Source: a virus
Length of the DNA: 25,451 nt
Strand: one strand, 5' to 3'
Virus record (IMG/VR): IMGVR_UViG_3300048125_000049
Location: 1 to 25,451 of that record
Below are positions 7,238-20,235 of this stretch, one piece after another (position 1 is the first letter of the stretch; every line of letters starts with the position of its first letter). The notes under the pieces are model-generated. The model did not search any database. It saw nothing but the letters and a program-made list of their open reading frames with translations, and was not told where the DNA came from. The position numbers were made by a program, and so were the translations under genes.

Positions 7238-8962
7238 ATGAACACCCTAGACCTCCTTAGAGGTGATTTTAAGCTCTTCCTACAAGCATTGTGGGCGGAG
7301 CTTGATCTACCTAACCCTACACGTGCACAATATGCAATCGCAGACTATCTTCAGCATGGACCTAAGCGTCTTCAAATACAAGCTTTCCGTGGAGTGGGAA
7401 AAAGCTGGATTACTGGAGCCTTTGTTCTGTGGACGCTTTTTAATGACGCTGAAAAAAAGATAATGATTATATCTGCATCTAAAGAACGTGCAGATAACAT
7501 GTCAATCTTTCTACAGAAACTGATTATTGAAACACCTTGGCTGGTGCATATGCGCCCTAAATCTGATGACTCACGTTGGTCCCGCGTATCTTTCGACATT
7601 CTTTGCTCCCCTCACCAAGCTCCTTCTGTTAAATCAGTGGGTATTACAGGTCAGCTTACCGGTTCTCGTGCTGACTTAATGATCCTTGACGATATCGAAG
7701 TCCCTGGTAACTCAATGACAGAAATGATGAGGGAGAAATTACTTCAACTCTGTACCGAGGCTGAATCAATCCTTACTCCAAAGGATGACTCCCGCATCAT
7801 GTACTTAGGTACTCCACAAACTACATTTACGGTCTATAAACGCCTTGCAGAACGCTCCTACAAACCGTTCGTTTGGCCTGCACGTTACCCACGTAAAACA
7901 ACAAACTACGAAGGTCTCCTAGCGCCTCAGCTGGTTGAAGACCTAGAGAAAGGTGTTGATAAATGGGACGTTACAGATGACCGTTTTGATAATGAAGACC
8001 TGATTGAACGTGAAGCGTCAATGGGTCGTAGCAACTTTATGTTGCAGTTCATGTTAGACACTAGTTTATCCGATGCTGACAAATTCCCTCTTAAATGTGC
8101 AGACCTTATTGTTACTTCCGTTAACCCTAAGTCTGCTCCTGAGTCCGTCATCTGGTGCTCAGACCCCCAAAACGTTATCAAAGAACTACCAACTGTTGGA
8201 TTACCTGGAGATTATTTCTACTCTCCAATGCGACTCCAAGGAGAATGGGATGTTTACTCCGAAACAATATGCTCGGTTGACCCGTCGGGTCGTGGCTCAG
8301 ATGAGACAACAGCAGCTTATATCTCCCAACGCAACGGTATCCTGTACTTGCACGACATGCGTGCTTACAGAGACGGATACTCAGACAACACACTCCTGGA
8401 CATTCTAAAAGGTTGTAAAAAGTATGAAGTATCTAAGCTTGTCATTGAAACTAACTTTGGTGACGGTATTGTTAGCGAGCTTTTCCGTAAGCATCTTCAA
8501 CAAACAAATCAAAGAGTGGATATTGAAGAAGTCCGTGCAACAGTTAGAAAAGAAGATCGAATCATCGATTCCCTTGAACCCGTCCTCAATCAACACCGAC
8601 TCGTTATTAACAAGTCCGTTATCGAATGGGACTTCAAGTCTAACCCCAACGAAGCTCCTGAACGTAGACTAATGTACATGCTATTCTATCAAATGTCTCG
8701 CATGTGTCGTGAAAAAGGCGCAGTGAAACACGACGATAGAATTGATTGTCTAGCTCAAGGTGTCCAATACTTTACAGATGCTATGGGTATATCAGCCCAA
8801 GAAGCAATCAAAGAACGTAAACGTATGGAGTGGAATCAGATGTTAGAAGACTTTATTGATGACCCACAATCCTCTGCAAATCACATGGTTTTAAACATGA
8901 ATTATGACCAAAGACAACAAGCAAGAGGTAATAATAAGACATCAGTCCCTAACTGGATTTAG
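7238..8962 (+). CDS. terL: Terminase large subunit (gp19-like packaging motor)
   Basis: 574 aa, close to T7 gp19 (586). ATPase half: Walker A FRGVGKSW (K55, S56), Walker B LMILDDIE (D151, D152, E154) and the coupling-type GTPQTT at 191-196. Nuclease half: acidic residues in VDPSGRGSDETT (D348), VIETNFGDG (E404) and HDDRIDC (D499, D500), the RNase H-like triad. It docks on the portal, pumps DNA with ATP and cuts concatemers. The start at 7238 follows the previous stop by 3 bp. Overlapping reading-frame ORFs inside are shadows. It ends at an intergenic stretch carrying a strong terminator, so it is the last gene of the late unit. Confidence 0.95.
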   Translation: MNTLDLLRGDFKLFLQALWAELDLPNPTRAQYAIADYLQHGPKRLQIQAFRGVGKSWITGAFVLWTLFNDAEKKIMIISASKERADNMSIFLQKLIIETPWLVHMRPKSDDSRWSRVSFDILCSPHQAPSVKSVGITGQLTGSRADLMILDDIEVPGNSMTEMMREKLLQLCTEAESILTPKDDSRIMYLGTPQTTFTVYKRLAERSYKPFVWPARYPRKTTNYEGLLAPQLVEDLEKGVDKWDVTDDRFDNEDLIEREASMGRSNFMLQFMLDTSLSDADKFPLKCADLIVTSVNPKSAPESVIWCSDPQNVIKELPTVGLPGDYFYSPMRLQGEWDVYSETICSVDPSGRGSDETTAAYISQRNGILYLHDMRAYRDGYSDNTLLDILKGCKKYEVSKLVIETNFGDGIVSELFRKHLQQTNQRVDIEEVRATVRKEDRIIDSLEPVLNQHRLVINKSVIEWDFKSNPNEAPERRLMYMLFYQMSRMCREKGAVKHDDRIDCLAQGVQYFTDAMGISAQEAIKERKRMEWNQMLEDFIDDPQSSANHMVLNMNYDQRQQARGNNKTSVPNWI

Positions 8963-8967
8963 ATCGA

Positions 8968-8984
8968 TGGCGGATGTATACAGG
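8968..8984 (+). repeat. 17-nt sequence shared with the RNA polymerase gene
   Basis: TGGCGGATGTATACAGG, just after the TerL stop, is identical to 14375-14391 inside the RNA polymerase gene, where it codes GGGCIQ. The first copy is non-coding and lies 29 nt before a terminator. A promoter-like or recombination-derived origin is possible; chance is not excluded. Confidence 0.4.
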
Positions 8985-9012
8985 AGGAGGGAAGGGTGGA
9001 CCCGAATTCTGC

Positions 9013-10237: not shown

Positions 10238-10266
10238 CTGACAGCAGCGCTGATGTGTGCCATACT
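10238..10266 (+). promoter_or_regulatory. Sigma70-like early promoter P1
   Basis: CTGACA (10238-10243), 17-nt spacer, CATACT (10261-10266) within TGCCATACTA, the same -10 context as P2 and P3. The transcript would start near 10273, 20 nt before the gene at 10293, which has a GGAGAG ribosome site. Confidence 0.65.
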
Positions 10267-10774: not shown

Positions 10775-10883
10775 TGAAATGATTGCATGGATTCAGCAAC
10801 ACGAACTAGAGTGTTATGAGGAATGGATGAATGACGAATCTAACTGGAGTGAACCAGTTGACAAACCGTCTACCACCGCTTGA
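10764..10883 (+). CDS. Small acidic early protein (39 aa), unknown
   Basis: ATG 10764 with GAGG at 10754-10757. The product, MISDEMIAWIQQHELECYEE to the end PSTTA, is acidic with three Trp. The stop codon TGA is inside the -35 box of promoter P2 (TTGACT), and the last codons (accGCTTGA) are repeated at the end of the following gene. It could mimic DNA or bind a host protein, as many tiny early proteins do, but that is speculation. Confidence 0.5.
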   Translation: MISDEMIAWIQQHELECYEEWMNDESNWSEPVDKPSTTA

Positions 10884-10908
10884 CTTTTCACCGATTCTCT
10901 GCCATACT
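10880..10908 (+). promoter_or_regulatory. Sigma70-like early promoter P2 (leaderless)
   Basis: TTGACT (10880-10885), 17 nt, CATACT (10903-10908). The next ATG is at 10915, where transcription itself would start, so the mRNA would have no leader. A 16-nt block ATTCTCTGCCATACTA (10894-10909) is identical in P3. Confidence 0.7.
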
Positions 10909-10914
10909 ATAAGC

Positions 10915-11088
10915 ATGAACAAACAAACCTTCCGATTCGTCTTGACTCGCACCGCTAACGGTGTATCCAAAGATTTTGATTACTACACTGCACAGTATGA
11001 TGCAGAGCGTGCGCTACAGCGTGCTCGCATGAACAACGGTTATTATCAATACCATATGACACGCGAGGAACTGTCCACTACCGCTTGA
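10915..11088 (+). CDS. Small basic early protein (57 aa), unknown
   Basis: The start is set at ATG 10915 because promoter P2 ends 6 nt upstream; the longer in-frame ORF from 10831 would cross the promoter. Sequence MNKQTFRFVLTRTANGVSK, then DFDYYTAQYDAERALQRARM and a final STTA. The beta-then-helix layout and a QYDAERALQRARM amphipathic helix suggest a compact alpha/beta fold. No family recognised. The stop TGA lies within the -35 of P3. Confidence 0.6.
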   Translation: MNKQTFRFVLTRTANGVSKDFDYYTAQYDAERALQRARMNNGYYQYHMTREELSTTA

Positions 11089-11113
11089 CTTTCCCTCCAT
11101 TCTCTGCCATACT
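11085..11113 (+). promoter_or_regulatory. Sigma70-like early promoter P3 (leaderless)
   Basis: TTGACT (11085-11090), 17 nt, CATACT (11108-11113), ATG at 11120. Same geometry as P2, including the 12-nt CCGCTTGACTTT and the stop codon of the upstream gene nested in the -35 box. Confidence 0.7.
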
Positions 11114-11119
11114 ACGTAC

Positions 11120-11323
11120 ATGACTTACACACGCGATCAACTCATCAACGCATTGTCTTACGAGTACACATTACTATGTCATGACGACTTCGATCCCGAT
11201 GTTGACATGTCATCTTCAGATCATCGTTCTTATCTAAACTCATTGTCTTATGATGAGCTTGTGTCAGAGGCATGTACCGATGACATATTCACGCTTGACG
11301 AGTTCATCCTCAACTACGGTTGA
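11120..11323 (+). CDS. Small acidic early protein (67 aa), unknown
   Basis: Starts 6 nt after the -10 of P3, so it is probably translated from a leaderless mRNA. The product is strongly acidic (DDFDPDVDMSSSDHRS; DDIFTLDEFIL) with the helix YDELVSEACTDDIF. Tiny acidic early proteins in T7-like phages often bind host enzymes or imitate DNA; no homologue is recognised, so that is only a suggestion. Confidence 0.65.
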   Translation: MTYTRDQLINALSYEYTLLCHDDFDPDVDMSSSDHRSYLNSLSYDELVSEACTDDIFTLDEFILNYG

Positions 11324-12383: not shown

Positions 12384-12450
12384 GTAACACATAATGGCAT
12401 ATGTGTCACACTAACTAACAGATAGGCGGCATTATTGTCGCCTCTTTCTG
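12384..12450 (+). terminator. Inverted repeat followed by a terminator hairpin
   Basis: Directly after the ArdA-like stop: ACACATA (12387-12393), 6-nt loop, TATGTGT (12400-12406), extended by GT/AC. Then AGGCGGC (12424-12430), ATTATT, GTCGCCT (12437-12443) and CTTTCTG. The second is a good 7-bp stem but a poor T run. It probably ends or attenuates early transcripts ahead of the middle set. Confidence 0.5.
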
Positions 12451-12464
12451 TCGCTCACATTCAT

Positions 12465-12490
12465 CACATTCACACATCACAAGGACGCAG
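12465..12490 (+). repeat. 26-nt element, copy A (intergenic)
   Basis: CACATTCACACA, TCA, CAAGGACGCAG. 23 of 26 positions match copy B at 13528. Here it is non-coding and includes AAGGA, a possible ribosome site 11 nt before ATG 12497. Candidate phage RNA polymerase promoter or leader element. Confidence 0.6.
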
Positions 12491-12496
12491 CTACCA

Positions 12497-12730
12497 ATGG
12501 CAACTGTTTATGTTCTCCGTTATCGCACTGAATACGATAGCCATGAGATGGTTTCTGTCTATTCTAATCTGCGAGGTGTACTGAATCGCCTTGAGATTAG
12601 TGACCTTCATGGTAACTTTGACGAAGACGAAACCATAACTATTGAGTGCATGGAAGTAACATCCGAAGAAGACTCTCTCATACGCCTCAACAACATCCGC
12701 AAACACTACGCAAACAAGGAGAACAACTGA
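12497..12730 (+). CDS. Small acidic protein (77 aa), unknown
   Basis: Start ATG 12497, preceded by the 26-nt element A with AAGGA at 12481-12485. The product has a beta-rich N-terminus (ATVYVLRYRTEYDSHEMV), an acidic middle (NFDEDETITIECMEV) and a charged helix (LIRLNNIRKHYANKENN). No family recognised. It is the first gene of a coupled group to the RNA polymerase gene; the stop overlaps the next ATG (TGATG). Confidence 0.65.
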   Translation: MATVYVLRYRTEYDSHEMVSVYSNLRGVLNRLEISDLHGNFDEDETITIECMEVTSEEDSLIRLNNIRKHYANKENN

Positions 12731-12849
12731 TGCTTTGGGACGAATCAACCATCATCCTTGCCATTGTTGGCATGGTAGGATTGTTCAGCACTGCTATCAT
12801 CTGGCAGCGCTCTAACCGTATCACCTCTAAATACTATGGAAAACGTTAA
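12730..12849 (+). CDS. 39-aa single-span membrane peptide
   Basis: MLWDES, then a hydrophobic span ILAIVGMVGLFSTAIIW and a basic tail QRSNRITSKYYGKR. An inner-membrane anchor with the positive end inside would follow the positive-inside rule. The ATG overlaps the preceding stop. Its partner is unknown. Confidence 0.55.
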   Translation: MLWDESTIILAIVGMVGLFSTAIIWQRSNRITSKYYGKR

Positions 12850-13030
12850 ACCACATGATGATGACTTCTACATCCGCAATGCAATCTATTGTTGGTTGCA
12901 TTACTTTAATGAAGAACATCAATGGCACGCTAAGTATTCAGAACTAGCTAAGCGTGATACATACCTACCAAAACCACGACGCGCAAAGCGCAGGAAAGCA
13001 CCCAATGCAGTTACAGAACTCCTCTCTTAA
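12836..13030 (+). CDS. Small basic protein (64 aa), unknown
   Basis: MENVKPHDDDFYIRNAIYCW, a His/Trp-rich middle (HYFNEEHQWHAKYS) and a strongly basic segment PKPRRAKRRKAP near the end, typical of nucleic-acid binding. It starts 14 bp inside the previous gene; the last 26 bp overlap the next one. No domain recognised. Confidence 0.55.
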   Translation: MENVKPHDDDFYIRNAIYCWLHYFNEEHQWHAKYSELAKRDTYLPKPRRAKRRKAPNAVTELLS

Positions 13031-13169
13031 AGAGTGGGAATATACACAAACAGATGGTCAGGTTTGCTATTTATTAGCACCCGATTCAGAGCACGCTGCG
13101 TGGGCTGCTGCTGAATTGTCCGGTGGCACAGAGTTCCTTAAAAATGTGAGGTTATGCGATGAGTGGTAA
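13005..13169 (+). CDS. Small protein (54 aa), unknown
   Basis: ATG 13005 is preceded by AGGAAA (about 12991-12996), which decides this start over the upstream in-frame one at 12954. Contains SLKEWEYTQTDGQVCYLLAPDSEHAAWAAAELSGG; the DSEHAAWAAAELS helix is amphipathic. No function recognised. It overlaps both neighbours. Confidence 0.55.
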   Translation: MQLQNSSLKEWEYTQTDGQVCYLLAPDSEHAAWAAAELSGGTEFLKNVRLCDEW

Positions 13170-13464
13170 GTATTTCCCGAACAACTGGGAGGCATGGATG
13201 GACATGCCCTCAGAATATCTTGTCACACCTACGTGGGAAGAGTTTGAAGATTGGAAGCTACGCGGCTGGGAGATTCCTAGTTCAGTGTGTTGCATTATCC
13301 GCGCAAAAAATACCAAAGGTAAAATCAAAGAATACGTTTACCAAAAAGCACATGCTGCTGAAAATCGTATTCAACAACTCATCAATGAAGATGCAGAGTT
13401 TACCGTCTGCACTGATGATGAGTTACGTCATATTGCACCCGTAAAATTTAATGAGTTTAATTAA
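13159..13464 (+). CDS. Conserved-looking protein (101 aa) upstream of RNA polymerase
   Basis: Contains YFPNNWEAWMDMP, TWEEFEDWKLRGWEIPSS and VCCIIRAKN, then KEYVYQKAHAAENRIQQLI. I associate the NNW and D-W-K-x-x-G-W-E-I-P-S-S pattern with small genes upstream of RNA polymerase in cyanopodoviruses. Trp-rich front, basic helical back half. Function unknown. The start ATG overlaps the preceding gene by 11 bp with a GAGG just upstream. Confidence 0.65.
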   Translation: MSGKYFPNNWEAWMDMPSEYLVTPTWEEFEDWKLRGWEIPSSVCCIIRAKNTKGKIKEYVYQKAHAAENRIQQLINEDAEFTVCTDDELRHIAPVKFNEFN

Positions 13465-13585
13465 TCTTGAACAGTTCGAGCAACTTAGGGAAGCATATCC
13501 TGAGCTAGCTGAGTGCTACGATCTCTCCACATTCACACAATGCAAGGACGCAGAGGAGCCTATTGCCAACACCCGCGCAGATTGA
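13451..13585 (+). CDS. Micro-ORF (44 aa) overlapping the RNA polymerase start
   Basis: MSLINLEQFEQLREAYPELA, then ECYDLSTFTQCKDAEEP and a final ANTRAD. Acidic and helical. Starts 14 bp inside the previous gene and ends 23 bp inside the RNA polymerase gene in another frame, so it could couple translation. The 26-nt element B lies within its codons, so it may alternatively be chance coding of a DNA signal. Confidence 0.45.
   Translation: MSLINLEQFEQLREAYPELAECYDLSTFTQCKDAEEPIANTRAD
13528..13553 (+). repeat. 26-nt element, copy B
   Basis: CACATTCACACA, ATG, CAAGGACGCAG, ten nt before the TTG start of the RNA polymerase gene. It sits in the third codon phase of the 44-aa micro-ORF. Followed by GAGGAG, a ribosome site for the polymerase. 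Confidence 0.6.
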
Positions 13586-15899
13586 CGAACAGATACAACT
13601 TGAGCGTGATGCCATTGCTCAAGGGTTAAAGAAACTACACAAGAACACACGCGACTTAGAAGGTAAAGAGTATGCGTCTGCTACTGTGTATGGAGCTACT
13701 TCTATTGATACCTTGCTGCCTCTTGTGGTGGCACGTATTGAAGCAACTACCAATCGCATAAAAGAGGGTAAAACTGGCGCTGCATTTGTTGAGATACAGA
13801 AGTATCTTGCTGATGTAGAACCACTTGCTGCAGCTGCTATTGCTGTTAAACTGACCTTTGACAAAGTATTCTCATACAAAGAAAAAAGTAATCGAGCTGT
13901 CAACGTATGCGATTCTATTGGTCTTGCTGTTGAACAAGAGTGTCAGATGCGGCACTATGAAAAGCACGCACCTGGTCTACTCAAAGTACTGAAAGACAAC
14001 TATTGGCACCGTTCTATCGGAACTGAGCAGAAAGTAGTTGTTATACGTACATTGATGAACCGTTATGGTGTTGAACAGTGGAAACCGTGGGGAAGAGCTA
14101 ACCGTACTAAACTCGGTGGCTGGTTACTAGACTGCATCATGCAGAGTAGCGGTTGGTTTACAAAGGACATGCAACAGGAGGGAAATAAACGTGCTCAATT
14201 CATCATCCCAACCCCTGAGTTTTTGGAAATCAAGGACGCAGTAATGAGAGATGCTGAACTATTCAGTCCACTTGCATGGCCGATGATTATCGAACCCAAC
14301 GATTGGGAACACGATAGACAAGGCGGATACATTCTTAACGAGGTGATGCGTGGGCATGATATGGTGCGGCGCGGTGGCGGATGTATACAGGGAGATAAAC
14401 CACTGGAATTTTTAAACAAGATCCAGAAGGTTGCTTATCGGCTAAACCCCTTTATTGTAGGGGTAGCGGAAGAGCTAGATAGATTGGAACGAGCTGTTGG
14501 TAAGTTTCTCCCTATTATTCACCATGAACTACCACCCAAGCCTGTAGATATTGCAGAGAACGAAGAGTCTCGCAAGTCATACAGGAGAACTTGTGCTGAG
14601 GTTTACAACCTACAAAAACAAGAGTTCAACAAGTCATGCCGAACACGTATGACGATGGAAGCAGTTGCTAGATTCAAGGATCGTGATAAGTTCTACATTC
14701 CGTGGTCTTTTGATTACAGAGGTAGAGCCTACCCAATCCCTGCCTTCCTCACACCCCAAGATACAGACTTTGGAAAAAGTTTGTTAAACTTTGCTGATAA
14801 GTCTTATATGACTCCTGAAGCAGAGGACTGGTTAGCGTTTCAAGTTGCTACAACATATGGTCTTGATAAAGCTCCTATGGCTGAACGTTTGGACTGGGTA
14901 AAGGACAACACACATATAATCTCTTGTGTCGCTTCTGATCCTATACGCCACATTCACGAATGGGAAGCTGCTGATGAACCATGGCAATTTCTTGCAGCAT
15001 GTGATGAGTATTATCATTGCGTGTTAAAATGTGATCGTAACTTTACATGTCTTCCTACGGCGACGGACGCCACCTGTTCAGGATTACAAATTTTAGCAGG
15101 TTTAGCCAGAGATAAGAGCACAGCTAAGTTAGTTAACGTTCTACCATCTGATAAACCGCAGGATGCTTATGCTGTCGTTGCTGCTACTGCTACTCCTTAC
15201 TGTCCTAACTCTATCCGCTTATATATGGATAGAAAAACTGTCAAGCGAGTAGTGATGACCGTACCTTACAATGCAAAGCCCTTCTCAAACCGTGGGTACA
15301 TCAAGGACGCACTAAAGGAGAAGGGTGTTGAGATTGATAAAGATGACTTGACAAAGACTGTGGTCGCTGTTAGAAATGCTATGGATGAGGTTGTACCTGG
15401 TCCTATGGCTGTCATGTCTTGGATTGAATCTGAAGTTGCTAAGGCAATCGACAGAGGCAAAACAGAGCTAACGTGGGTTACACCATCTGGCTTTGTCGTC
15501 AATCAAAGGTTGATGAAGAAACAGATTGAGACAGTCAAGTTGCAATTACTAGGTCGTTGTGAAATCCAGGTCGCAGTTAAAGACTCTGACAAGGTTGACA
15601 AGCAACACCACAAGAACGCAACAGCACCGAATCTTATACATTCACTCGATGCATCTCTTCTCCACTTCAGTGCGCTTCGTTTCGACGCACCGATCGCTCT
15701 CATTCATGATTCTGTATTGTGTCGTGCTACCGACATGTCTTCTCTCAGTGCAATTGTACGAGAGACATATATGCACCTCTTCGCAGAGCATGATTACTTG
15801 CGAGACTTCGCTCACCAAATAGAAGCGGAGACTGAACCACCGATCATTGGAGACCTTGAACCGGAATCCGTGATTGAATCCACTTATTTTTTCTGTTAA
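13563..15899 (+). CDS. T7-type single-subunit RNA polymerase
   Basis: 778 aa, versus 883 in T7. Catalytic residues by comparison with T7: D502 in TDATCSGLQ (T7 D537), K561 in TVKRVVMTVPYN (K631), Y569 (Y639) and D716 in LIHDSV (D812). The palm motif FDYRGRAY (383-390) and the APNLIHSLDAS block (688-698) are clear. It transcribes phage middle and late genes from its own promoters. The start is TTG at 13563, after GAGGAG at 13553-13558; no ATG fits, and a TTG start may keep expression low. It ends in a TAATGG overlap with SSB. Confidence 0.95.
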   Translation: MPTPAQIDEQIQLERDAIAQGLKKLHKNTRDLEGKEYASATVYGATSIDTLLPLVVARIEATTNRIKEGKTGAAFVEIQKYLADVEPLAAAAIAVKLTFDKVFSYKEKSNRAVNVCDSIGLAVEQECQMRHYEKHAPGLLKVLKDNYWHRSIGTEQKVVVIRTLMNRYGVEQWKPWGRANRTKLGGWLLDCIMQSSGWFTKDMQQEGNKRAQFIIPTPEFLEIKDAVMRDAELFSPLAWPMIIEPNDWEHDRQGGYILNEVMRGHDMVRRGGGCIQGDKPLEFLNKIQKVAYRLNPFIVGVAEELDRLERAVGKFLPIIHHELPPKPVDIAENEESRKSYRRTCAEVYNLQKQEFNKSCRTRMTMEAVARFKDRDKFYIPWSFDYRGRAYPIPAFLTPQDTDFGKSLLNFADKSYMTPEAEDWLAFQVATTYGLDKAPMAERLDWVKDNTHIISCVASDPIRHIHEWEAADEPWQFLAACDEYYHCVLKCDRNFTCLPTATDATCSGLQILAGLARDKSTAKLVNVLPSDKPQDAYAVVAATATPYCPNSIRLYMDRKTVKRVVMTVPYNAKPFSNRGYIKDALKEKGVEIDKDDLTKTVVAVRNAMDEVVPGPMAVMSWIESEVAKAIDRGKTELTWVTPSGFVVNQRLMKKQIETVKLQLLGRCEIQVAVKDSDKVDKQHHKNATAPNLIHSLDASLLHFSALRFDAPIALIHDSVLCRATDMSSLSAIVRETYMHLFAEHDYLRDFAHQIEAETEPPIIGDLEPESVIESTYFFC
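14375..14391 (+). repeat. Second copy of the 17-nt TerL-downstream sequence
   Basis: TGGCGGATGTATACAGG inside the RNA polymerase gene, identical to 8968-8984. It continues GGAGATAA, giving ATACAGGGAGA, loosely like a T7-type initiation region (TATAGGGAGA). Possibly an internal promoter, possibly coincidence. Confidence 0.35.
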
Positions 15900-16465
15900 T
15901 GGCACGTACTATCCACAAGACCGAACAGCCTGTTATCCTTGAAGGTTATCAAGCTGTGATGAAGCCGAGTAAGTTCGGCTATTCCCTGTCTGCTATCATT
16001 GATGGCAGCATGGTTGAAGCCCTAGAAGATGATCGTATTAATTCTCTTGAATGGGCACAATCTAAACTAAAGAACCCTAAGCGTTCTACCCTGAAGCCTG
16101 AGCCATGGGAAGAAGTTACTGAAGGTCAATTCAAAGTAAAGTTCAGCTGGAATGAAGACAACAAGCCACCGGTCGTTGACACCGAAGGTTCACCTGTCAC
16201 AGACGAGAATACGCCCATGTATTCTGGTAGCCAAGTTAAGCTGGCGTTCTATCAGAAACCATACATCCTCAAGGATGGGGTTACTTATGGAACAAGCCTT
16301 AAACTGGTTGGTGTACAACTGGTGTCTCTCAATTCAGGAGCTGGTGTAGACACTGGCGATATGGCTGCTGAAGATGTAGCTGCCCTGTTTGGTAAGACTG
16401 AAGGCTACAAGTCTGCTGATCCTGTTGTCACTGTCATCCCGGAGAACATTTCTGATGACTTCTGA
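15899..16465 (+). CDS. Single-stranded DNA-binding protein (gp2.5-like)
   Basis: 188 aa. By position and layout the counterpart of T7 gp2.5. It begins ARTIHKTEQPVILEGYQAVMKPSKFGY and has YSGSQVKLAFYQKPYILKDGVTYGTSLKL, like the OB-fold part of these proteins, and VQLVSLNS before a flexible acidic end. It ends PENISDDF: an acidic tail with terminal Phe, which in gp2.5 contacts the DNA polymerase and helicase. It coats ssDNA during replication. It starts at an overlap with the RNA polymerase stop and ends at an ATG overlap with endonuclease I. Confidence 0.9.
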   Translation: MARTIHKTEQPVILEGYQAVMKPSKFGYSLSAIIDGSMVEALEDDRINSLEWAQSKLKNPKRSTLKPEPWEEVTEGQFKVKFSWNEDNKPPVVDTEGSPVTDENTPMYSGSQVKLAFYQKPYILKDGVTYGTSLKLVGVQLVSLNSGAGVDTGDMAAEDVAALFGKTEGYKSADPVVTVIPENISDDF

Positions 16466-16818
16466 TGGCATTTAGATCCAAGCTCGAAGAAAAGGTAGCT
16501 GATCTACTTGTCGATCTTGGAGTTAAATACGAGTACGAAACAACTAAAGTAAATTACATTATACAGCACGTTTATACACCTGACTTCGTATTACCGAATG
16601 GTGTCGTGCTGGAATGTAAGGGTTACTGGGAACCTGAAGATCGGCGCAAGATAAGGGCAGTAAAGGAGCTGAATCCTAACCTTGACTTACGTATGGTCTT
16701 CCAGGCACCGTTCAATAAGATCAGTAAGAAATCTAAAACTACATACGCTAAGTGGTGCGATAAGCATGACATTCTTTGGACATCATTCCAAAACATCCCC
16801 ATCGAATGGCTCCTCTGA
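16465..16818 (+). CDS. Endonuclease I (gp3-like Holliday-junction resolvase)
   Basis: 117 aa. The PD-(D/E)xK core YTPDFVLPNGVVLECKGYW gives D40, E50 and K52, equal to D55, E65 and K67 of T7 gp3. The N-terminal FRSKLEEKVADLL and the C-terminal SKTTYAKWCDKHDILW also follow gp3. It resolves branched DNA and breaks down host DNA to feed nucleotides. Slightly shorter than T7 gp3 (149). It overlaps SSB by one base and the primase-helicase by 53 bp. Confidence 0.92.
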   Translation: MAFRSKLEEKVADLLVDLGVKYEYETTKVNYIIQHVYTPDFVLPNGVVLECKGYWEPEDRRKIRAVKELNPNLDLRMVFQAPFNKISKKSKTTYAKWCDKHDILWTSFQNIPIEWLL

Positions 16819-18388
16819 ATTCCTATTTCATGCGCCATGCGAAGAGTGTGGATCATCAGATGGTAAGAGTGTCTATGATGACGGTCACACATATTGTTTT
16901 GTTTGCCATTACTATACGTACGGTGATGGTGAACCTTCTTCACACATTCACCAATTGCAAGAACGCAGTGTGCAAATGACAGGCTCAGCCCAAAGGCTGC
17001 AGAAACGTAACATCTCACAGAAAGTATGTGAGAAGTACAAAATCTACCGTGATGGTGATAAGCTACGCTTTTACTATCATGACGAATCAGGCATTGTCAA
17101 AGGTGCCAAGGTAAAAACAAAGGGTAAGTCGTTCTCGTATGAGGGTGAGGTACCTGGTACATTTTTTGGACAACATCTCTACCCTACAACTGGTAAACGT
17201 ATCGTCATTTTTGAAGGCGAGATGGATGCAGCTAGTGGGTCTGAGTGTATGCCAGGATGGCCGATGGTTTCTGTACCATCTGGTGCTGCTGGTGCAAAGA
17301 AAGCTGTACAAAAGCAACTACCATTGTTGCAGGGTTACGATGAGATCGTAATCTTCTATGACAATGACCCACCAGGTCGTCAGGCAGCTGAAGAGTGTGC
17401 TAGTGTACTACCGCCTGGTAAAGTCAAGATTGCCCACCTTCAAGGCGCTTACAAGGACGCATCGGATGCACTACAAGGTAACGACTCCGACGCTGTATGT
17501 CGAGCTATCTGGGACGCTAAGCCGTTCCGCCCTGATGGTATTGTCGATGGCAAGACACTACTAGAACTTGTAACCACACCATCACCCGCTGCAGATCATG
17601 ACTACCCATTTCAAGGATTACAATCAAAGCTTCACGGGATCCGGTACGGAGAACTTGTCACAATTACTAGCGGATCTGGACAGGGAAAATCGTCCGTCTG
17701 TAGAGACTTGGCTGCTCACTTGTTATCGAAGGGAGAACGGGTCGGTTACTTGGCGCTTGAAGAGTCAAACCGCCGTACTGCTCTAGGACTTATGTCTCCT
17801 ATTGTTGGTAAAGCATTACACATGGGTGAACATGATCGTTCTACGTTGACTGAAGCCTATGATAAAACGCTTGCCAATTGGGATTTATTTCTTTTTGATG
17901 GGTTTGGATCTTTTGATCCTGATATTATCTACAATCGTATTGAATATCTTGCTGCAGGTTTGGATACCAAGGTTATCTTTCTCGATCACCTGTCTATCCT
18001 CCTCAGTGGATTGGATGGAGACGAAAGACGTATGATAGATACTACAATGACACGCCTACGTTCATTAGTTGAACGCACAGGCATCGCTTTATTTCTTGTG
18101 TCGCATCTTAAGCGCACATCATCGGATCAAAATCATGAGGAAGGTGCACGTGTTACACTCGGACAACTTAGAGGAAGTGCGGCAATCGCTCAACTTAGCG
18201 ATGCAGTTATTGGGCTCGAAAGAGATCAGCAGGGTGGATCTAAACACTCTGATACAACTGTTAGAATTCTCAAAAATCGCTACTCTGGGGAAACAGGCGT
18301 TGCTTGTCGATTAAACTACGATTTATCTACCTGTAAATTCTATGAAACTCAACCAGAACAAGAGTTCAACGCAGCAACTGATTTCTGA
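16766..18388 (+). CDS. Primase-helicase (gp4A-like)
   Basis: 540 aa, near T7 gp4A (566). The N-terminus has a zinc ribbon, C25-x2-C28 and C44-x2-C47. TOPRIM primase: IFEGEMDA (E150) and FYDNDPPG (D199, D201). DnaB-type helicase: Walker A SGSGQGKSS (K308), Walker B VIFLDHLS (D407) and FLVSHLKR. It unwinds the fork and makes primers for the phage DNA polymerase. The start is ATG 16766, the first Met before the zinc ribbon; an in-frame ATG at 16682 would add 28 out-of-family residues. The 26-nt element C lies at residues 60-68. Confidence 0.93.
   Translation: MTFFGHHSKTSPSNGSSEFLFHAPCEECGSSDGKSVYDDGHTYCFVCHYYTYGDGEPSSHIHQLQERSVQMTGSAQRLQKRNISQKVCEKYKIYRDGDKLRFYYHDESGIVKGAKVKTKGKSFSYEGEVPGTFFGQHLYPTTGKRIVIFEGEMDAASGSECMPGWPMVSVPSGAAGAKKAVQKQLPLLQGYDEIVIFYDNDPPGRQAAEECASVLPPGKVKIAHLQGAYKDASDALQGNDSDAVCRAIWDAKPFRPDGIVDGKTLLELVTTPSPAADHDYPFQGLQSKLHGIRYGELVTITSGSGQGKSSVCRDLAAHLLSKGERVGYLALEESNRRTALGLMSPIVGKALHMGEHDRSTLTEAYDKTLANWDLFLFDGFGSFDPDIIYNRIEYLAAGLDTKVIFLDHLSILLSGLDGDERRMIDTTMTRLRSLVERTGIALFLVSHLKRTSSDQNHEEGARVTLGQLRGSAAIAQLSDAVIGLERDQQGGSKHSDTTVRILKNRYSGETGVACRLNYDLSTCKFYETQPEQEFNAATDF
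16943..16968 (+). repeat. 26-nt element, copy C (inside primase-helicase)
   Basis: CACATTCAC, CAATTG, CAAGAACGCAG, matching copies A and B at 22 of 26 positions or close to it, with the same length. Here the first base is in codon position 1 (HIHQLQER), unlike copy B, so the match is at DNA level. Confidence 0.5.
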
Positions 18389-18488
18389 ATTCAAAGCGCT
18401 GAAGCTGCATAAGCCTAACCCACCTACCACCGAAGCTATTGAACGTGCTCAATTTAAAAACCGGACGTTCAAATGGAATGGGAAGTGA
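18342..18488 (+). CDS. Small basic protein (48 aa) between helicase and polymerase
   Basis: MKLNQNKSSTQQLISEFKAL, then KPNPPTTEAIERAQFKNRTFKWNGK. It overlaps the end of the helicase by 47 bp and the start of the exonuclease by 16 bp. There is no ribosome site, so it would depend on coupling. The ERAQFKNRTFKWNG tail looks like a real conserved patch rather than random. No function assigned. Confidence 0.5.
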   Translation: MKLNQNKSSTQQLISEFKALKLHKPNPPTTEAIERAQFKNRTFKWNGK

Positions 18489-19003
18489 GTCTAGTCTTTG
18501 ACATAGAAACAAACGGATTACTTTATGATGTTAGTACCATCCACTGCCTTGCTATCTATGATCTCTCTACAGATGAGACAATTGCGTACAATGACACTGG
18601 ATCTAGTGAGCCGATATCAAGAGGCTTGCAAAGACTACAGGATTCGGACAGGGTTATTGGTCACAACATTATTGGTTACGACCTACCTGTTATCCGTAAA
18701 CTCTACCCTTGGTTTGGTAACCCTGCTTATGTGGTGGATACTCTATTACTTAGCAGACTTTACCATCCGGACATGATCAACTTGGATAAGCAGCGTACCT
18801 GGGATGGTATGCCTCTCAAGTTGTACGGCAAACACTCACTAGAATCTTACGGCTACAGATTAGATGAACGTAAAGGTGACTATGGTTCCACTTCTGATTG
18901 GGCGGACTGGTCCCAAGAAATGGAAAATTATTGTATACAAGACGTTCACGTTACCACCAAACTATGGAAACATTTCCAGCCATACCTGAATGGGTCACGC
19001 TAG
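18473..19003 (+). CDS. DNA polymerase 3'-5' exonuclease domain (split N-terminal part)
   Basis: 176 aa forming the proofreading domain of a T7-like family A polymerase: ExoI FDIETNG (D10, E12), ExoII IGHNIIGYDLPVI (D70), ExoIII YCIQDVHVT (D157), all intact. It ends QPYLNGSR at a TAG, 40 bp after the polymerase ORF (18964) has begun in the -1 frame. In T7 these are one protein. It could be a true split gene whose halves assemble, a programmed frameshift, or a sequence error. The gene overlaps the 48-aa ORF upstream. Confidence 0.88.
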   Translation: MEWEVSLVFDIETNGLLYDVSTIHCLAIYDLSTDETIAYNDTGSSEPISRGLQRLQDSDRVIGHNIIGYDLPVIRKLYPWFGNPAYVVDTLLLSRLYHPDMINLDKQRTWDGMPLKLYGKHSLESYGYRLDERKGDYGSTSDWADWSQEMENYCIQDVHVTTKLWKHFQPYLNGSR

Positions 19004-20235
19004 AACATGAAGTCGCAGAAATCCTCACCAAACAAGAACTACATGGATGGTATTTTGATGAACGCGCTGCATGGGAACTTGCATCAACTCTCCGAAAAGA
19101 GCTTGAGCAAACTTATCAACTACTACGTGACAGGCATCCTTACGTTGCAGGATCGGTGTTTACTCCTAAACGAGATAATCGAACCCAAGGTTATGTCAAA
19201 GATGCTCCACTCACACGCCTTAAAGAATTAAATCCTACATCACGAGATCATATAGCATGGATCCTGCAAACATTTCATGGCTGGACTCCGACACAGAAGA
19301 CACCTACTGGGAAGTCTATCATCGACGAGCCGATACTGAAGGAGATCGGGAGCCCGACTGCCCTTGCATTCCTCCGGATTTTGACGATAACGAAGATGCT
19401 TGGAATGATCAGCGAAGGCGCGAACGCTTGGCTCAAGTTGAGTACGAGTGTTAACCGAATCCATCACCATTGTTCAGTTGCTACTAACACCCACAGATGT
19501 GCACACCGAAATCCAAACCTTGGGCAAGTTCCATCAGATGAAAGATTTAGACGCCTTTTTATACCGAGCCCTGGTCTCTCCATGGTTGGTGCCGATCTTA
19601 GTGGTATCGAGCTTCGTATGCTCGCTCATTATCTTGCACGGTATGATGGAGGAAGATACGCGAGACTACTACTTGAGGATGACATCCACCAAATCAACGC
19701 AGACAAGATTGGTATCTCCAGACGACAAGTCAAGACCGTAACTTATGCTATGCTATATGGTGCCGGTGATGAAAAAATTGGACACAGCTATGATCTCCAA
19801 CTCTCCACTGCAAAAGCTAAATCAAAGGGTAAAGAAATCCGTGCAGCATACGTCGAAGCAATTGAAGGATTGGGTGACTTACTTACAGCTATCAAGAAAG
19901 CTTCGGAGAGAGGGTTCATCAAGTCTATCGACGGAAGAAAAATTACGGTTGATTCACCTCACAAATCGCTAAACTACTGCCTCCAGTCAGGAGCTGGTGT
20001 GATCGCGAAGAGGTGGATGGTCATTAATCAACAAACAATGCGAGAAGCACAGATATGTGCATCGCAACTAGGATTCATTCATGACGAGTTACAGTTCGAG
20101 TGTGCCCCAGAGCACGTCAAAGATTTATCTACATCCTTGGTATATAGCGCTACAGCAGCTGGAGAATACTACAACATGCGAATCCGACTCGACGCGGAAG
20201 CAACACACGGAAACAACTGGAGCGAAACCCACTAA
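18964..20235 (+). CDS. DNA polymerase, family A polymerase domain (split C-terminal part)
   Basis: 423 aa from ATG 18964; upstream frame-open residues to 18898 are not family-like. Motif A VGADLSGIELR (D211, E216), motif B RRQVKTVTYAMLYGAG (K257, Y261 at the position of E. coli Phe762) and motif C FIHDELQF (H373, D374, E375) are all present. The N-terminal LEHEVAEILTKQELHGWYFD is the region that follows the exonuclease in T7 polymerase. Tyr at the 762 position is typical of lytic phages. It lacks the exonuclease half, which is encoded just upstream. Its stop overlaps the next start (TAATG). Confidence 0.92.
   Translation: METFPAIPEWVTLEHEVAEILTKQELHGWYFDERAAWELASTLRKELEQTYQLLRDRHPYVAGSVFTPKRDNRTQGYVKDAPLTRLKELNPTSRDHIAWILQTFHGWTPTQKTPTGKSIIDEPILKEIGSPTALAFLRILTITKMLGMISEGANAWLKLSTSVNRIHHHCSVATNTHRCAHRNPNLGQVPSDERFRRLFIPSPGLSMVGADLSGIELRMLAHYLARYDGGRYARLLLEDDIHQINADKIGISRRQVKTVTYAMLYGAGDEKIGHSYDLQLSTAKAKSKGKEIRAAYVEAIEGLGDLLTAIKKASERGFIKSIDGRKITVDSPHKSLNYCLQSGAGVIAKRWMVINQQTMREAQICASQLGFIHDELQFECAPEHVKDLSTSLVYSATAAGEYYNMRIRLDAEATHGNNWSETH

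Follow-up and report, generated by a model that had tools for sequence, protein, structure and literature searches.

An S-RIP1-like podovirus carries a repeated 26-nt element

The window, meaning the whole stretch of DNA analysed here, is a virus record of 25.5 kb. It derives from an uncultured oceanic Synechococcus podovirus of the S-RIP1-like kind, whose RNA polymerase is 87-88% identical to those of Synechococcus phage S-RIP1 and the uncultured phage MedDCM-OCT-S04-C24. The DNA polymerase (18473-20235) is encoded in two overlapping frames, one for the exonuclease part and one for the polymerase part, a split also annotated in P-SSP7 and S-TIP37. Host-type promoters (TTGACT-17-CATACT) were observed in two near-identical copies, at 10880-10917 and 11085-11122. 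Their ATGs, at 10915 and 11120, come some 7 nt behind the -10 box, an arrangement that would fit leaderless early mRNAs, and a similar promoter, the third, is found at 10238-10266.

The 26-nt element, CACATTCACACA-N3-CAAGGACGCAG, occurs in three copies on the + strand, named A, B and C (Table 1). The first-pass annotation had reported the three copies at these positions and had read B in the third codon phase of a micro-ORF and C in the first, that of the primase-helicase frame; both positions and phases were confirmed. Copies A and B match all 23 of the 23 specified bases, while C has 3 mismatches. Scanning the window with up to 3 mismatches allowed returned these three copies only, and 100 dinucleotide-preserving shuffles gave 0 matches, with 0 expected by chance. 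The halves of the element are also the commonest repeated words of the window, found on the sense strand only: CAAGGACGCA is its most repeated 10-mer (5 on the + strand, 0 on the - strand) and ACATTCAC its most repeated 8-mer (8 and 0, respectively). Within the polymerase gene, CAAGGACGCA also occurs alone at 14231 and 15302; there the codons vary among relatives as coding sequence normally does, and both occurrences were therefore treated as coding matches rather than counted as the element, and a polymerase site near +604 was set aside as partly natural QQGRKR coding. An Rfam search of the element gave no match up to E 1, and no description of the motif was found in the literature searched or in two genome papers on cyanopodoviruses.

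Table 1. Features of the window discussed in the text
Feature	Coordinates	Strand	Position and content
P1, predicted phage RNA polymerase promoter	8964-8986	+	TATA at 8977-8980; directly after the terminase stop at 8962
Terminator-like hairpin (12424-12443) with extra CACATTCA	12407-12464	+	Upstream of copy A; terminator scan, RNA fold z -2.7
Copy A	12465-12490	+	5' leader of a small gene with start ATG at 12497
Micro-ORF (MSLINLEQFEQL...)	13451-13585	+	3' part contains copy B and overlaps the polymerase start
Copy B	13528-13553	+	Just upstream of GAGGAG and the TTG start of the RNA polymerase gene
P2, predicted phage RNA polymerase promoter	14371-14393	+	TATA at 14384-14387; inside the polymerase gene
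Copy C	16943-16968	+	Primase-helicase linker, following the zinc domain
Conserved in-frame internal start, helicase part	16970-16978	+	GTG at 16970, ATG at 16976

The three copies lie ahead of different kinds of start

At A, B and C alike, the element lies directly upstream of a start codon. The arrangement at copy A recurs in relatives: at 41 distinct A-like sites, CGCA stands 1-11 nt ahead of a start codon that opens a reading frame. This tally left out B and C by pattern and includes a few sites that are not A proper. Another 14 matches had no start within 25 nt and were mostly contig ends, coding matches or copies at a further, optional site, D, which lies 31-53 nt upstream of the start of the next small gene. 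The gene downstream of A differs among relatives while the element stays. Compared with shuffles, the 85 nt upstream of the A-like sites folded much more strongly, with a median z of -4.3 and 35 of the 41 below -1.5; the corresponding fold in the window is the terminator-like hairpin at 12424-12443. The CA half alone, as ACATTCAC or ACATACAC, stands immediately before the ATG of further early genes, in the window as well as in S-RIP1 and MedS04C24.

The micro-ORF that carries copy B was present in 61 distinct sequences, with indels that preserve the frame, and the element core was found in 55 of 66 distinct polymerase upstream regions. The codons for Lys-Asp-Ala (KDA) at B were AAG in 40/40, GAC in 44/44 and GCA in 44/44 cases, compared to 15/29, 100/228 and 45/175 for the same codons elsewhere in the micro-ORF; these rows are related and not independent, and the contrast with the rest of the micro-ORF is large. 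Because the KDA codons never vary synonymously in 44 sequences, selection at B appears to act on the nucleotides. The polymerase start of relatives mostly has its own GAGGAG after B, and the RNA around the polymerase start was less folded than control stretches (p 2e-5).

Copy C is followed by an in-frame start between the zinc domain and the helicase part of the primase-helicase, and this start is conserved among relatives. At the start column, GTG accounts for 88 of 101 Val codons, compared to 12% of Val codons gene-wide, and sequences lacking that GTG nearly all carry, a few codons before it, an ATG in frame. The second half of the element is missing at C in most relatives, which nevertheless conserve the internal start, so that this half is optional there. 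The RNA of copy C was not more open than random RNA (0.36 versus 0.45).

The element is conserved at equivalent sites in related phages

Copies at equivalent places in related phages, one of the checks named by the first-pass annotation, were looked for and found among IMG/VR relatives. The near-exact pattern matched 17 other IMG/VR stretches, at the same sites as in the window: before a small early gene, before the polymerase and in the primase-helicase linker. Copies A and B are also present in S-RIP1. With a looser pattern, B excluded, the polymerase relatives gave 64 matches in the sense of the genes and 0 on the opposite strand. In each of 19 records the core 10-mer was confined to one strand, the sense of its genes as derived from locus orientation, and in near-complete genomes it was confined to about -1.8 to +7 kb of the polymerase start, positions being derived from the loci of the polymerase relatives. 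The scripted site classes include misplacements, with polymerase and primase coding matches filed under A, and the counts quoted here come from separate tallies. The earlier argument that protein conservation does not explain the match, made from the different reading frames, gains from the synonymous invariance at B and the conserved sites in relatives, and the element is best described as a nucleotide-level signal.

In one subgroup CAAGTCCGCAG replaces CAAGGACGCAG, in most cases throughout the copies that a genome carries, and AAGGA, a possible Shine-Dalgarno sequence present in the CAAGGACGCAG form, is absent from this GTCC form. The GTCC variant occupies A, B and C alike in L041 and L054, and mixed variants occur within one genome (L108) and between B and C on the contig of L014/L044. 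Spacing between the two halves ranges from 0 to 16 nt across relatives. A small number of copies are located within genes, the polymerase gene among them, at a distance from known starts (L108, L109), and one genome (L065) carries identical ~20-nt versions at A, D and B.

A different repeat is predicted to be the polymerase promoter

A second repeat, TGGCGGATG-TATA-CAGG, is distinct from the 26-nt element and forms the pair P1/P2. The promoter of the Syn5 polymerase, ATTGGGCACCCGTAA, occurs twice in the Syn5 genome, once in the polymerase gene (PMC3950665); its positions in the Syn5 record are 4929, within the polymerase gene, and 44797, directly behind the terminase. At the equivalent places the window carries CGATGGCGGATGTATACAGG (8965) and CGGTGGCGGATGTATACAGG (14372), and TATACAGG has only 2 occurrences in the window. 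In most relatives that cover both places, the two copies share their variable part, which differs between genomes.

Across 78 relatives, the variable bases covary with polymerase residues 178, 205, 210, 659, 665, 667 and 669. Residue 178 and the base adjoining TATA combine as R-G in 58 polymerases, S-C in 15 and V/I-T in 5, with no exceptions; residue 210 covaries with the next base, and residues 659, 665, 667 and 669 with bases further out. Independent pairs, taken on a polymerase tree built excluding the covarying columns, agreed in 9/9 cases for residue 178 and 11/11 for residue 210. In an alignment read by eye, residues 659, 667 and 669 fall on T7 N748, R756 and Q758, which are known promoter contacts. 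The predicted pair P1/P2, and not the 26-nt element, is most likely the promoter of the phage RNA polymerase, and the covariation would provide a natural specificity table that is directly testable in vitro. At none of the three copies did the + strand show host sigma-70 -35/-10 hexamers, and a host promoter at these sites was rejected on this ground.

The element as a candidate leader module

Comparison among relatives shows that the element is real, conserved at the nucleotide level, restricted to the sense strand and located ahead of starts. For its role, we propose a sense-strand module of mRNA 5' leaders that would belong to the translation-initiation regions of early and middle genes in this cyanopodovirus group, a proposal drawn from sequence comparison that we judge about equally apt to be right or wrong. 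Our confidence is held at this midpoint by the GTCC form, the optional second word at C and the copies away from starts. The polymerase's own GAGGAG at B and the RNA of copy C, no more open than random, also count against the proposal. In the proposed module, the G-poor CA leader ACATTCAC would be joined to a second word, CAAG-NN-CGCAG. Copy A would form the 5' leader for the gene that comes first behind the terminator-like hairpin. Copy B would act from a position shortly before the polymerase start, within the micro-ORF that overlaps it, and copy C would precede the internal start of a short, helicase-only form of the primase-helicase. We infer that the element exerts translational control, in that it may help ribosome loading or may let a common factor co-adjust the translation of these genes; the partner of the second word could be the ribosome, a protein or an RNA. 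A plain Shine-Dalgarno role was considered and is weakened by the GTCC form, which removes AAGGA.

The control might instead be exerted in trans, by a phage or host RNA-binding protein, a small RNA or a sequence-specific ribonuclease that recognises the word CAAG-NN-CGCAG in transcripts of the early and middle genes, which would thereby come under joint control. Such a factor would suit an element that is sense-only, near several gene starts and limited to the early/middle region, with variants often common to all copies of a genome, as in L041 and L054. However, the mixed-variant genomes argue against it, no candidate factor was found, and a small-RNA partner is disfavoured by the lack of an antisense 10-mer in the phage genomes (19 records), so we regard joint control by such a factor as conceivable but on the unlikely side. 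An extended version, which we think unlikely, is a phage-wide post-transcriptional switch: a factor reading the same word in early and middle leaders, including those of the polymerase and the helicase internal start, would co-time transcription and replication genes, and the word would drift concertedly among the copies within each genome. Quite doubtful, in our estimation, is a short repeat of little or no function that spreads to permissive places (linkers and gene junctions) when ectopic recombination or template switching copies it. The identical versions at A, D and B in L065, its presence in protein linkers that are variable and are read in more than one frame, and the different genes behind A all speak for it, and the tendency of copies within one genome toward the same variant would suit copying or recombination in general; the strict strand bias, the constant placement of A ahead of start codons and the invariant codons at B point to selection instead.

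The first-pass annotation had named a promoter, an RNA element and a recombination site as candidates, and of these the RNA element fits best. Recombination is retained as a low-ranked and improbable rival, in the form of a boundary sequence aiding the exchange of small-gene modules by homologous recombination. Different genes do adjoin one side of the constant element among relatives, but this applies downstream of A only; B and C stand at fixed core genes, a crossover between copies would delete the polymerase region, and the listed ORFs of the window included none recognised as an integrase or recombinase. The promoter candidate, for the phage single-subunit RNA polymerase, is lower still. 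The element does have few copies in one direction, one of them just before the polymerase gene, yet both known Syn5 promoter positions are occupied by the other repeat, matched within each genome, and it is bases of the P1/P2 type that covary with the polymerase in the 78 relatives. The element core is unchanged across K667, E667 and Q667 polymerases, whereas the TATACAGG pair does covary, and the variable distance between the halves departs from the fixed spacing of a promoter. We consider this reading very unlikely and keep it in view because the KP34 polymerase uses two unrelated promoter classes (PMC6834552).

A leader module of this kind, if real, would show how abundant marine cyanophages initiate early-gene protein synthesis and how they produce the primase-helicase in two forms. 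The analysis also corrects a natural mistake: in these genomes the repeat that catches the eye near the polymerase gene is most likely a leader, and the promoter a pair that is easier to miss and whose recognition part changes fast.

Comparison with known systems

The Syn5 promoter resembles the element in its few copies, one of them near or in the polymerase gene, all in the same direction. The element is absent from the Syn5 promoter positions, and another matched repeat lies exactly there in the window. In S-CBP42 (L036), a matched pair of CATCTGGCCCATGTAAGCAGGGAGA was observed at 26984 and 33671, the Syn5 promoter positions. The promoter predicted earlier for this phage is CACTTCCACTCAACCAACCG, a prediction that was put through a screen (PMC11475235); like the element, CACTTCCACTCAACCAACCG is a CA-rich repeat with some copies directly before start codons. 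By positional argument, the S-CBP42 promoter would be the CATCTGGCCCATGTAAGCAGGGAGA pair rather than CACTTCCACTCAACCAACCG.

Shine-Dalgarno and CA-rich 5' leaders are found in phage and cyanobacterial genes. The element is likewise G-poor before starts, and most of its copies contain AAGGA; unlike such leaders, it has a long shared word beyond AAGGA, recurs at an internal start and within a micro-ORF, and has a variant that lacks AAGGA. In T7 gene 4, an internal in-frame start after the zinc-binding domain gives the helicase-only gp4B. The 4A/4B internal start occupies the same position after the zinc-binding domain as the start downstream of copy C, which would also yield a helicase-only product. 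In contrast to T7 gp4B, the start in this group is mostly GTG with a CA-rich leader, and its helicase-only product is a predicted one.
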